DNA of 45,748 nucleotides from a virus. The position numbers and the translations under genes were made by a program. This document shows positions 2,563 to 44,773 of this stretch, piece after piece. Location of the stretch: positions 1-45,748 of the IMG/VR virus record IMGVR_UViG_3300037493_003728; one strand, written 5' to 3'. Position 1 is the stretch's first letter. Each line of letters starts with the position of its first letter. The notes under the pieces are model-generated. The model searched no databases. It was not told the DNA's origin and saw nothing but the letters and a program-made list of their open reading frames with translations.

Positions 2563-2605
2563 AGCCGACCATGCCTCTCGCTGAAGCATACTTGGTCGGC
2601 TTTTT
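2563..2605 (+). terminator. Intrinsic terminator after the tail tube gene
   Basis: AGCCGACCA at 2563-2571 pairs perfectly with TGGTCGGCT at 2593-2601, followed by a T-rich tract. It separates the sheath-tube transcript from the tmRNA. Confidence 0.8.
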
Positions 2606-2632
2606 CTTTTCAAAAAAGTTTCAATACCTTTA
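2604..2632 (+). promoter_or_regulatory. Probable promoter of the phage tmRNA
   Basis: TACCTTTA at 2625-2632 is a 7/8 match to the -7 box, with TTC at 2604-2606 in the -33 position (18-nt gap). The spacer contains AAAAAAGTTTC, the same word found in the promoters near 14285 and 21755. The predicted start is near 2638-2640. Confidence 0.45.
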
Positions 2633-2644
2633 ACCCGTTCTTTG

Positions 2645-2895
2645 ATTGATACGTGAAAAGCGTAATGCGACACGTGGGTTCGAACCCCACCGCCTCCACC
2701 GGCTTAGTATAGCTGAGGATAAGGGCTCCTGAAAATGGATAAGGCCAACCTCCTCGAATATTCGGGGGCGACTTGGATTTGACCGCATTGAGGCATCATG
2801 GGTAGAAGGGCAAGCTGTAACAGGCGAAGAAGAATACCAATTGAAAATGGTCGCTTAGAGCGAACATTTGAGACGTCCAAGGAAACGAAATTCCG
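2645..2895 (+). ncRNA. ssrA: Circularly permuted (two-piece) tmRNA
   Basis: The 3' acceptor piece comes first: helix-2 strand TAATGCG at 2663-2669, T arm GTGGG-TTCGAAC-CCCAC at 2674-2690, acceptor strand CGCCTCC at 2691-2697, then A and CC. After a 63-nt intervening segment comes the coding piece. Its 5' GGGGGCG (2764-2770) pairs with the acceptor strand in 7 bp with one G-U, followed by the D-loop-like GACTTGGATTTGAC. CGCATTG (2784-2790) then pairs with the helix-2 strand. The tag reading frame at 2823-2858 encodes GEEEYQLKMVA and a TAG that sits in the loop of a TCGCT/AGCGA hairpin. The CCA end is not fully encoded. tmRNA rescues stalled ribosomes and tags nascent peptides, using host SmpB. 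The piece ends are estimated, not mapped; the PK1 pseudoknot was not resolved. Confidence 0.85.
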
Positions 2896-2934
2896 AACCG
2901 CATTTGACTCTGTGTCGGATGCGGTTTTTCTTTT
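2896..2934 (+). terminator. Intrinsic terminator of the tmRNA
   Basis: AACCGCAT at 2896-2903 pairs with ATGCGGTT at 2919-2926, followed by TTTTTCTTTT. It gives a primary transcript of about 290 nt. Confidence 0.8.
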
Positions 2935-3028: not shown

Positions 3029-4105
3029 ATGGGATTCAAAAAGGGGCATGGTGATAGTAATCGGCTAAGACTAAGTGCCGAAGAAATTGAACTGATCACT
3101 GCATTCCGCGACCGTGGACATCTGCCCGAACTATTTGAGCAATGCAAAGCGGCAGGCATCGAGTTAAAAGACGTTAAGCACTACTGGCATAAAAGCGAAA
3201 AGTTCTCAATCTTCGCCAAGAACGAGGGGCTAACTTTAGAAGATACGTTTGCCCCGATACTCGAAGAACTACAAACATACAGCCCGAAGTTTGAACGCAT
3301 TGAGCGGTCAATTATAGCAGATCCACATTGCCTAATTATAGACCCGTCAGATGTTCACGTTGGCAAGTATGCAGCCGCATCTGAGACTGGACAACATTAC
3401 GACATTGAGAAGGCGGTTGACCAAGTTGATCAAGGAATTGACGGAATACTTTCTAAGGCGTTCGGGTTCAACATCGACAAAGTGATATTTGTCATCGGTA
3501 ACGATTGCTTGCATATTGACACACCCCGAAGGACAACGACAAGCGGAACGCCACAAGATACTTCGGGAATGTGGCACGAGGCTTTTATAGCCGCCAAAGA
3601 AATGTATGTTCGTGCGATTGAGAGGATATTGCCTTACTCAGATGTTGAGATAATCTTCAACCCAAGCAATCACGATTACATGAGCGGCTTCATGCTTGCT
3701 CAAACGATTGAGGCTTATTACAGATGGTCAACTAACGTGACCTTTGACGTTAGTATTTCGCACAGAAAGTACACTAAGTACGGCAACAACATGATCGCCA
3801 CAAGTCACGGAGACGGGGCGAAGCTAGAGCAGACACCGATATTGATGGCAACGGAAAACCCGCAGATGTGGAATGATTGCCATTACCGTTACATCTATCT
3901 CCACCACATCCACCACAAGCAGACGCACAAGTTTATGAGCGGCAAGGACTTCATAGGTGTAACGGCTGAGTACCTACGAACGCCAAGCCCGTCCGATGGG
4001 TGGCATGACAGAAATGGTTATGTAGGCGCAAAGAAAGCGATAGAAGGCTTTATTCACTCGTTCAATGATGGGCAGGTCGCGAGGCTTACTCACAATGTTA
4101 TATAG
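3029..4105 (+). CDS. Metallophosphoesterase-like protein
   Basis: I start the gene at ATG 3029, not at the upstream in-frame ATG 2798, because the latter lies inside the tmRNA and before its terminator; 3029 also fits the -7 box at 2995. The 358-aa product carries the ordered metal-ligand motifs of calcineurin-like phosphoesterases: PSDVHVG, GNDCLH, NPSNHD, SHGDG and a His-rich HHIHH. An N-terminal segment (ELITAFRDRGHLPELFEQCKAAG) looks like a short helical domain. Similar phage proteins occur as stand-alone genes; the substrate is unknown. It sits as an extra gene between tube and chaperone with its own promoter, so it is probably not a structural protein. Confidence 0.7.
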   Translation: MGFKKGHGDSNRLRLSAEEIELITAFRDRGHLPELFEQCKAAGIELKDVKHYWHKSEKFSIFAKNEGLTLEDTFAPILEELQTYSPKFERIERSIIADPHCLIIDPSDVHVGKYAAASETGQHYDIEKAVDQVDQGIDGILSKAFGFNIDKVIFVIGNDCLHIDTPRRTTTSGTPQDTSGMWHEAFIAAKEMYVRAIERILPYSDVEIIFNPSNHDYMSGFMLAQTIEAYYRWSTNVTFDVSISHRKYTKYGNNMIATSHGDGAKLEQTPILMATENPQMWNDCHYRYIYLHHIHHKQTHKFMSGKDFIGVTAEYLRTPSPSDGWHDRNGYVGAKKAIEGFIHSFNDGQVARLTHNVI

Positions 4106-14745: not shown

Positions 14746-15423
14746 ATGAACCAATCAGTAACCGTCATCTGCACCAGTTTCAACCGTCCCGACCTATTGG
14801 AACGGACATTGACCAGCTTTTTCAAGTTCAACACCCATAAGCACATTGACGCGATCATTGTCCTTGATGATTCAGGCACGGTGGGTTGCAACGATCACCT
14901 GAAAGCAAAATTCCCGACCGTTCAATTTCAATACAACTACGAGCGAATAGGGCAGATCAAATCTATTGATAAGCTCTACGCCCAGATTCAGACTCCCTAC
15001 GTATTCCATTTGGAGGAAGATTGGGAGTTCTACAAAGGCGGGTTCATCGAGGACAGCTTTGAGGTGCTGGACTGTCAACCATCGATCCATTGCGTTTGGA
15101 TCAGGTCGGAAAAAGACACGAATGGACACCCCTTTGATGCTTGGATAGCTCAGGCTGAGGGAAGCAATGTTGGGTGGTCTAAGGTCAAGACGAACCACCT
15201 CGGATCGTGGCATGGGTTCACATTCAATCCTTGTCTGAGAAGGGTGGCCGATTACTTTACGCACGGCCCCTATTCCAGACTGGCTGTATTCAATCCCAAG
15301 AAGCCATGGGAGTCAGAAATGAAGGTCGGGAAGTACTTTTACGAGAAGGGGTATCACGCAGCGATCATTCGAGGTGACGGGTACGTAAGACACATTGGAG
15401 ATGGCAGGGGTATCAGGGCGTGA
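14746..15423 (+). CDS. Glycosyltransferase family 2-like
   Basis: A 225-aa protein with the GT-A opening VTVICTSFNRPDLLERTLTSFFK, the nucleotide-binding IIVLDDSG, then YVFHLEEDWEFY, which stands where the DxD-type motif is expected. GT2 enzymes transfer a sugar from a nucleotide sugar. It lies in a run of sugar and methyl transferases between tail and terminase genes, so it may modify a virion protein or host glycan. The 3' end overlaps the next short gene by 29 nt. Confidence 0.8.
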   Translation: MNQSVTVICTSFNRPDLLERTLTSFFKFNTHKHIDAIIVLDDSGTVGCNDHLKAKFPTVQFQYNYERIGQIKSIDKLYAQIQTPYVFHLEEDWEFYKGGFIEDSFEVLDCQPSIHCVWIRSEKDTNGHPFDAWIAQAEGSNVGWSKVKTNHLGSWHGFTFNPCLRRVADYFTHGPYSRLAVFNPKKPWESEMKVGKYFYEKGYHAAIIRGDGYVRHIGDGRGIRA

Positions 15424-20919: not shown

Positions 20920-21072
20920 CAATCTTGTTTCATCTTTATTGATCTGCGATACCGTCACCCTCACCAAACTCAACTGACACACCTCGACCCGTTCGTGCTT
21001 GATCGCAGGTTCGTTCTGAATGATCGGGGCAAGTATGCACGCTAGAAGGTAGAAGTGGATAAGGTATTTCAT
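20914..21072 (-). CDS. Small lipoprotein, 52 aa
   Basis: ATG 21072 overlaps the stop of the GT7-like gene (ATGA), so it is probably translationally coupled. N-terminus MKYLIHFYLLACILAP has a short signal with the lipobox LLAC. The mature part is about 40 residues (NEPAIKHERVEVCQLSL) with no recognised family. Its TAA lies in the outer box of the attC-like element at 20847-20919. It is too short to be well supported except by the overlap and lipobox; it could act as a small exported protein at the envelope. Confidence 0.5.
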   Translation of the reverse strand: MKYLIHFYLLACILAPIIQNEPAIKHERVEVCQLSLVRVTVSQINKDETRLE

Positions 21073-21722
21073 ATCTCAACAACAACTTTTAATCTGCGCC
21101 CGACCGTCCACGCGACAGCAAGATATTCCAGCGTATTCAATCCTTCCTTACTCGTATCGTATCCGCTCGTCATTCGGGCGCAGTTAAGTCGATGCGTCTC
21201 TTGGGCTCCATCCACGGCCAACCCATGTCGGTGCGGAAGCGATTCGAATTTGTTCGGCTTGGAAGGACGGGTCATGGCGAATCCCGCCTTCTCAATCCGG
21301 TTCAGCATGTCATCATCTTCCGCGCCCCAGCCCCAATATTCATTGGAGTAACCGTTCGCGGCCTCGAACGCCTTGCGAGAGAAAGCTGTGACGCCACCGA
21401 AATATCGCTCGTATGGGAGGCCGTATTTGAATTGACTTGCCGCAGTAGCCAAATGAACAGCATTCCCCTCCATGTAGTAAGTGCCTGATCCTCGCATCGG
21501 GATCATATCAACGTCATGTGCGATGATGTGCGTGGCCTGTCTGTCAAAGGCCAGTTTTGCTCCGATGTTCAAGAGTTTGCCACGATTGAACGGCTTGCCT
21601 TGCACTTGCTCTACTACGATGATCTGACTGGGTTTGAATCCGTATGATGCAAGCGCGGGAATGAGTTGAGCTAAGTGTTCCGCTCGGTCGCGGTAGGGGA
21701 TGATTATGAAGGGCTGATCCAT
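21069..21722 (-). CDS. Glycosyltransferase family 7 (beta-1,4-galactosyltransferase)-like
   Basis: A 217-aa protein carrying the full set of GT7 signatures: IIPYRDRAEHL, KPFNRGKLLNIG (FNRAKLLN motif), HDVDMIP (metal-binding DxD), YFGGVTAFSRKAF, NEYWGWGAEDDDM (WGWGGEDDD acceptor/catalytic motif) and an HRH. It is shorter than animal enzymes because the membrane anchor is missing. Expected reaction: transfer of galactose or a related sugar from a UDP-sugar. The start is the ATG 18 nt after a full promoter on the minus strand. Confidence 0.82.
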   Translation of the reverse strand: MDQPFIIIPYRDRAEHLAQLIPALASYGFKPSQIIVVEQVQGKPFNRGKLLNIGAKLAFDRQATHIIAHDVDMIPMRGSGTYYMEGNAVHLATAASQFKYGLPYERYFGGVTAFSRKAFEAANGYSNEYWGWGAEDDDMLNRIEKAGFAMTRPSKPNKFESLPHRHGLAVDGAQETHRLNCARMTSGYDTSKEGLNTLEYLAVAWTVGRRLKVVVEI

Positions 21723-44092: not shown

Positions 44093-44773
44093 ATGTGTAT
44101 AGCCATCTTAAACACCCCTGAAAACAGGCTGCCGTTCGAAACGATCGAAGCGAGTTTATATTCAAATCCAGACGGTTTCGGAATAATCGCCACCAATGGA
44201 AGTAAACTTATCAGTCAAAAATCAATGTCGATGAACCCCGATAAGATCTACGGCATCTACCTGAAACACCGCGAAGACCTACCTGAATCGAACATTGTTC
44301 TACATTTCAGAATAGCCACGGCCGGGAAAGTGAATGTCGAAAATTGTCACCCGTTCCACGTAAACGAAAACTTAGCGTTCGTTCACAATGGGATCATAGG
44401 ACAAGGCTCGAGAAAATATTCAGACACATATCTGTTTAATGAGACGTTGAAAAAATTGCCGTCTTCATTCCTGTCCAATCACGGAACGCTCGATTTGATA
44501 AAGCGATCAATCGGAGCGTCTAAATTAGTTTTCTTGAATGATAGCAATGAAGCTACCATAATCAACGAAGATATGGGGCATCGTGACGCGTTCGGAAATT
44601 GGTTTTCAAACCGTTCTTATGAGTGGTCTAAATTTTCAACGCTAAAGGACTACGAATATCCAACGACCGAAAGTTGTATCTGGTGCGATCCATATTCACC
44701 CGATGGATCAAACTACGTTTGTAAAAGTTGTGAGGATTGGATTAGTAAGGATAATAAATATGCGTACCGTTAA
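44093..44773 (+). CDS. Class II glutamine amidotransferase-like protein
   Basis: A 226-aa protein. The N-terminal Met is followed by Cys2, the nucleophile of Ntn-type GATase II after Met removal. Typical motifs follow: LHFRIATAG (HFR), NCHPFHVNENLAFVHNGII (N...HNG) and KYSDTYLFNE (SDT). It ends in a zinc-like C-x2-C...C-x2-C (CIWC, CKSC). It hydrolyses glutamine to ammonia, here probably passed to the amidoligase. Shares TCACCACA 28 nt before its start with the two genes upstream. Confidence 0.8.
   Translation: MCIAILNTPENRLPFETIEASLYSNPDGFGIIATNGSKLISQKSMSMNPDKIYGIYLKHREDLPESNIVLHFRIATAGKVNVENCHPFHVNENLAFVHNGIIGQGSRKYSDTYLFNETLKKLPSSFLSNHGTLDLIKRSIGASKLVFLNDSNEATIINEDMGHRDAFGNWFSNRSYEWSKFSTLKDYEYPTTESCIWCDPYSPDGSNYVCKSCEDWISKDNKYAYR

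Follow-up and report, generated by a model that had tools for sequence, protein, structure and literature searches.

A compact, circularly permuted tmRNA gene in a contractile-tailed phage with a probable Bacteroidota host

Introduction

tmRNA rescues stalled ribosomes and adds a tag to the protein left incomplete. Its two-piece form has been described from three bacterial lineages, plus phages that mostly belong to those lineages. The alpha, beta and cyano permuted tmRNAs (RF01849, RF01850 and RF01851, merged as RF04321) have the same gene order and tRNA-like domain as the gene described here, which lies in a 45,748-nucleotide stretch of viral DNA that was analyzed as a whole (hereafter the window). 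All 23 tags read from these permuted genes start with A, whereas the tag of the window starts with G. A survey of phage tmRNAs counted 402 phages with a tmRNA, 133 unique structures, and 53 two-piece forms among these, mostly aquatic (PMC9004378). The two-piece tmRNAs of marine phages (Melnitz, the pelagimyophages, and cyanophages, e.g., S-CAM1) are likewise phage-borne and permuted, with a tRNA-like domain and a tag frame, but the lineages of their hosts are themselves mostly two-piece, and the two cyanophage tags read start with A (ANTSDS... and AKSSDT...), unlike that of the window.

Phages of the crAss-like group are held to infect Bacteroidota. One of these, cr7_1 (NC_055895.1), and Chryseobacterium phage MA9V-3 (PV245944.1), which has a Bacteroidota host, both carry a permuted tmRNA with a short coding piece, as the window does. 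The MA9V-3 tag begins with G (GNVIDINKYVAKLEVAA) and the cr7_1 tag ends in -VA, each as in the window tag. Both genes have a 12-nt D segment and a GGAC linker, where the window has 13 nt and ACAC, and both records are annotated as SsrA only, with the permutation unremarked. A marine IMG/VR family with tags of the form GEQVE(L/M)AMAA (e.g., L117) resembles the window gene in being compact and permuted, with the resume site TAACNGGC, a G3.U70 pair, and a covarying helix 2. It differs by a spacer of 15-21 nt in most members, a 12-nt D segment, and a tag ending in MAA, and it is carried by T4-like contigs whose hosts are uncertain. The one-piece tmRNA of Bacteroidota (e.g., L204) shares the GE...Y tag, the GGC resume codon, and a similar D segment with the window, but it is a single piece of ~350-400 nt.

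A permuted phage tmRNA is already known in kind, from the published two-piece phage tmRNAs and from MA9V-3 and cr7_1. What is new is a compact, little described permuted family with mostly G-initial tags, along with hints of its possible descent from the one-piece gene of Bacteroidota. In a literature search that covered mainly open-access papers, no published account uniting permuted tmRNA, Bacteroidota, and phage was found.

Anatomy of the locus

Four points are direct results of computation: the anatomy set out here, the helices that are conserved and covary among relatives, the lack of an SmpB gene in the phage, and the insert-like location. A complete circularly permuted tmRNA is encoded at positions 2651-2933 of the window, with the 3' tRNA half preceding the 5' half (Table 1). 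The preliminary description had placed the T arm and 3' acceptor strand before the 5' acceptor strand, and both the coordinates and ARAGORN confirm this order. The tRNA-like domain is complete, with an acceptor stem, a T arm, and a D segment without an anticodon arm, and it includes the alanine identity pair G3.U70 (G2766 with T2695). Joint folding of the two pieces, a check suggested in advance, recovered all expected helices: the acceptor stem, the T stem, and helix 2 are in the minimum-energy structure, where helix 2 is extended by pairing of 2652-2656 with 2796-2800. The 7-bp acceptor stem and the CGCATTG/TAATGCG helix of the earlier reading are thus both present with 7/7 pairs. A terminator had also been proposed and was found. 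The promoter proposed alongside it was not confirmed in a search for promoters of the sigma-70 type, none of which lies upstream of the tmRNA on the + strand. The claim of a stop codon in a hairpin loop stands in part, as the hairpin forms in the fold of 2764-2875 and is missing from the minimum-energy fold of the longer piece, 2764-2935.

The linker before the T arm deviates from other members, being ACAC in the window, GGAC in almost all others, and GCAC in the L095 type. Since GCAC also occurs, GGAC in this position is a usual tmRNA feature and not a strict requirement. The ACAC linker might weaken the window tmRNA.

Table 1. Features of the permuted tmRNA gene and its surroundings (window coordinates)
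Feature	Position	Strand	Remarks
Tail-tube gene, Rho-independent terminator; left edge of insert	2563..2610	+	GCCGACC...GGTCGGC, then TTTTTCTTTTC
Acceptor piece (3' half of tRNA-like domain)	2651..2700	+	ARAGORN; ends ...CCACC; CCA incompletely encoded; 5' end approximate
Helix 2, 3' strand TAATGCG	2663..2669	+	7/7 pairs with 2784-2790
Linker ACAC	2670..2673	+	replaces near-universal GGAC; deviation seen against other members
T arm GTGGG TTCGAAC CCCAC	2674..2690	+	T stem 2674-2678/2686-2690, 5/5 pairs
Acceptor 3' strand CGCCTCC and discriminator A73	2691..2698	+	U70 opposite G3
Intervening sequence, 63 nt	2701..2763	+	between CC75 and G1; expected to be removed
Acceptor 5' strand GGGGGCG	2764..2770	+	7/7 pairs with 2691-2697
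D-loop-like segment ACTTGGATTTGAC	2771..2783	+	13 nt
Helix 2, 5' strand CGCATTG	2784..2790	+	7/7 pairs with 2663-2669
Resume site GTAACAGGC	2817..2825	+	resume codon GGC at 2823-2825; same TAACNGGC in relatives and some Bacteroidota one-piece tmRNAs
Tag reading frame GEEEYQLKMVA and TAG stop	2823..2858	+	ARAGORN and resume motif of relatives
Hairpin TCGCT-TAG-AGCGA	2851..2863	+	stop codon in loop; in fold of 2764-2875, absent from fold of 2764-2935
Coding-piece terminator	2895..2933	+	14-bp stem (2895-2927), then U run
DNA repair exonuclease gene, same insert	3029..4105	+	phrog_704, 3.7e-68

Detection by ARAGORN and covariance models

The sole RNA gene that ARAGORN calls in the window is a permuted tmRNA (2609-2949), and the program calls no tmRNA in 200 dinucleotide-shuffled windows of the same size, an outcome that upholds the first of two suggested searches. 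The second, with permuted covariance models, succeeded in part: RF04321 (tmRNA_permuted) matches 2672-2782 with E 9e-6 over the searched stretch, its score of 36.8 bits falling short of the gathering cut-off of 47, and at the gathering threshold Rfam has no match anywhere in the window. The Rfam beta model reaches 26 bits against a cut-off of 84. Most of the relatives tested pass the RF04321 cut-off, with 63-70 bits. Because one-piece Bacteroidota tmRNAs score 33-39 bits with this model, its score is weak evidence of permutation on its own, and it is the gene order, not the RF04321 score, that shows the permutation. Divergent tmRNAs can fall below the Rfam cut-off and stay unannotated.

A covariance model built from 14 related phage tmRNAs, with the window excluded (R1), matches the window end to end with 65.9 bits (E 5.5e-14) and has no other match in it. 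The same model gives 70.2 bits for cyanophage S-CAM1, 52.4 for S-SSM7, 42.3 for the permuted gene L062 of a Gammaproteobacteria MAG, and 17-25 for alpha genes. As S-CAM1 is matched, R1 does not separate the compact phage group from cyanophage tmRNAs. When the locus was compared with phage records by distant blastn, tRNA-like T arms were all that matched. A weak abiF RNA match at window 2565-2600 (26.3 bits, cut-off 37) overlies the hairpin of the tube-gene terminator and is probably due to chance.

Relatives and covariation

A standard tmRNA above cut-off is present in 141 of 148 Bacteroidota genomes, and a permuted one in a single genome of 395 (G279, locus L066). The earlier claim that ssrA genes of Bacteroidota are one-piece therefore holds as a rule, the sole permuted gene lying in an apparent prophage. 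There, L066 (G279:C1:986035-986308) adjoins tRNA-Met and tRNA-Ile genes, and the ORFs, read by eye, include a likely tyrosine integrase; an ordinary one-piece tmRNA (L204) lies at another place in this genome. As the resume site of L066, TAACTGGC, resembles that of the window, TAACAGGC, IMG/VR was searched for a 5' half followed by such a resume site. This pattern matched 82 contigs, and ARAGORN, run on 80 of them (L086-L165), called most of them permuted although the pattern had left the 3' half unspecified. The sharing of TTTGAC and TAACNGGC among these contigs arises partly by selection, because the pattern fixed both motifs. Most of their tags read GEQVE(L/M)AMAA, GTQINVDFAAGRKLAA and GKTITMVPQPLRAVA being two of the exceptions, and spacers in the relatives measure 15-233 nt.

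Two narrower patterns for close relatives of the window tmRNA itself gave 0 matches. The single IMG/VR contig found by the first permuted pattern (L002) has an alpha-like gene for which the ARAGORN tag is wrong. Relatives of the exonuclease (L008-L033) and of the tail sheath (L003-L007) contain no tmRNA, a match of L012 to the window's tag region being due to chance, and the sheath alignment, when run against genome contigs, yielded nothing that was confirmed.

Conservation of the acceptor and helix-2 pairs in related phages had been named beforehand as a test of the locus, and in 14 relatives these pairs are both kept and covarying. In this set of diverse related phage tmRNAs, from which the window was left out, 18 pairs make up the two stems (acceptor and T) and helix 2. 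Of their cells, 95.6% are paired, and both partners have changed at 10 pairs; none of 500 shuffles reaches any measure, and slid controls fall to 52-60%. Helix 2 is the cleaner test because the alignment was drawn from ARAGORN calls, which require the acceptor and T stems, and double changes occur at 5 of its 6 pairs. All 43 distinct tRNA-like domains, including that of the window, have 7/7 acceptor pairs and G3.U70.

Tag peptide

ARAGORN starts the tag one codon later than the preliminary description, at GAA (EEEYQLKMVA). The longer reading, GEEEYQLKMVA, is supported because in the relatives the resume codon is the GGC of TAACNGGC. The likeness of its GE..Y start to Bacteroidota tags also holds up, as 12 of the 33 Bacteroidota tags read start with G and almost all of these follow the GE.NYALAA pattern, rough frequencies that come from the best-scoring loci. 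It had further been proposed that the tag may be tuned to a different protease outcome and so send proteins to another fate, and it does end in MVA where nearly all Bacteroidota host tags read end in LAA or MAA. Endings in -VA recur in other phages, however (...RAVA in L165 and ...NVA in cr7_1), and an engineered ssrA tag ending in LVA was the fastest degraded of an LVA/AAV/ASV set in E. coli and Salmonella (PMC11003136). We regard tuning of the tag as very improbable; that it ends in MVA is no reason to expect tagged proteins to meet a special fate.

Genomic location and host

The phage is contractile-tailed, with genes for a sheath, tube, tape measure, baseplate, GpA-type terminase, portal, and fused protease-capsid. 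The tmRNA and the exonuclease gene fill ~1.7 kb between the tube-gene terminator and the tail chaperone gene, in keeping with the earlier view of an independent gene within the tail cluster. In L003, the closest relative (sheath 80% identical), which has its own version of the tube-gene terminator, and in L004 (60%), the chaperone gene directly follows the terminator, and the pair is an insert because these two sites are empty. Exonuclease relatives of up to 85% identity are found without a tmRNA, so the two genes are not always linked.

The tmRNA gene could be a dead relic, a fragment of host ssrA captured through imprecise prophage excision, as tmRNA genes are often integration sites and fragments of them occur in prophages (PMC9004378). 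Such an origin is improbable for a gene that is complete, with every pair intact and a terminator of its own, and permuted where the likely hosts have the one-piece form; no integrase was found among the window ORFs scanned.

The host is likely to be a bacterium of the Bacteroidota. Shine-Dalgarno motifs are no commoner than in shuffles (0.07 vs 0.07), as in Calle; two unassigned faecal contigs aside, the replication protein is nearest to those of Cellulophaga phages; and homologues of the exonuclease in genomes are mostly from Bacteroidota. Counter to this assignment, the structural genes are nearest to Proteobacteria phages, and the related phage in a Bacteroidota MAG (G198) shows some Shine-Dalgarno use.

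Other genes of the phage include a Glyco_transf_7C galactosyltransferase-like gene (window 21069-21722, -), a family 2 glycosyltransferase (14746-15423, +), and a class II glutamine amidotransferase-like gene (44093-44773, +).

Proposed function

The window very probably contains an intact phage gene for a two-piece tmRNA that performs trans-translation with host factors. Its processing, charging, and tagging, like its use to the phage, we infer from what is established for tmRNAs. The locus would be transcribed as one precursor, from which host tRNA-processing enzymes would excise the 63-nt spacer, with the host completing the CCA end. The acceptor piece (~50 nt) and the coding piece (~170 nt) would then be held together by the acceptor stem and helix 2, and the RNA would be charged with alanine via G3.U70. 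As no SmpB gene is present in the window, host SmpB would be used in freeing stalled ribosomes. Unfinished proteins would receive the tag A-GEEEYQLKMVA and be destroyed by host proteases. The benefit would most likely be the recycling of ribosomes while infection generates many broken mRNAs. For Melnitz, it was proposed that the tmRNA keeps the hijacked machinery running or recycles amino acids from host proteins (PMC9004378), and this proposal would apply equally to the window tmRNA.

Alternatively, the phage RNA may act as a decoy or inhibitor: bound to SmpB or alanyl-tRNA synthetase of the host, it would damp host trans-translation instead of carrying it out. A sequence from phage DS6A with the tRNA-like domain only is inhibitory to the endogenous tmRNA of E. 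coli, an effect that may come from titration of SmpB (PMC4131195, PMC11915505), and the deviant linker of the window tmRNA would fit such a role. We consider a decoy unlikely, however, as it would need no tag frame, resume site, or stop, and here all three are intact and conform to the pattern of the family.

Origin of the permutation

Many phages have a permuted tmRNA while their probable hosts have the one-piece form, and the present gene of the host has therefore not simply been copied. Sequence comparison hints that the compact phage family derives from a Bacteroidota one-piece gene. D segments of 12 nt are found in L066, L168, and cr7_1, all recovered without the biased pattern, as in some Bacteroidota one-piece genes, with identity in two of the three, and those of L066 and MA9V-3 are identical to Bacteroidota one-piece genes letter for letter. 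In contrast, the D segment is 13 nt long in 23 of 23 alpha, beta/gamma, and cyanophage permuted genes read, and its sequence differs too. The GGC resume codon is present in L066 and L168 and absent from cr7_1. The genome with both a permuted and a one-piece tmRNA also speaks for a derivation of this kind. For the 13-nt D segment of the window, the best scores are 10 with phage relatives and 9 with both Bacteroidota one-piece genes and L062.

In a tree built from 41 columns, the phage genes fall among one-piece genes of Bacteroidota and the window lies beside L095 and L204, both with weak support. With a p-AU of 0.079, a common clade for all permuted genes is not rejected, and a clade of alpha genes with the window, L066, L168, and L169 is weakly rejected (0.029); the values are 0.075 for the window with alpha and 0.21 for the window with cyanophage genes. 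Descent from the cyanobacterial form may be an alternative origin. That Bacteroidota phages made a fourth, independent permutation of tmRNA from the one-piece gene of their hosts is a tentative idea that we hold to be rather doubtful. If true, phage and host would carry the same RNA in two gene architectures. Such a set of phages makes two questions testable: the number of times that tmRNA has been permuted, and the reason for phages to supply a ribosome rescue RNA themselves.

Other tmRNA genes

Several genes met in these searches have unusual features of their own. Cellulophaga phage Calle_1 has a one-piece tmRNA (L172:42950-43309) with a tag read as 22 residues and ending in VGV (AQIEANMEAVNAILNLEVAVGV). 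Two identical 3.3-kb stretches of the Hyphomicrobiales MAG G044 carry permuted tmRNA matches of 86.9 bits (L063 and L065; G044:C30:13929-14234 and 164622-164927). ARAGORN misses both copies, and the MAG has a third, ordinary alpha-type tmRNA gene; the duplication may be an assembly artefact or a mobile element. A tRNA gene inside the intervening sequence of a permuted tmRNA has been called unique in a nominally archaeal MAG (PMC11915505), and L096 likewise has a complete tRNA-Ala(TGC) gene (3674-3748, -) within the intervening sequence of its permuted tmRNA. Lastly, four marine IMG/VR contigs (L091, L092, L109, and L155) have permuted tmRNAs with a 37-codon tag frame from GGC (e.g., GKQVNTTIASIFASLSAIRSLSQETIVAKEQVFAMAA) that ends in the AMAA of the family, where usual tags have ~10 residues.
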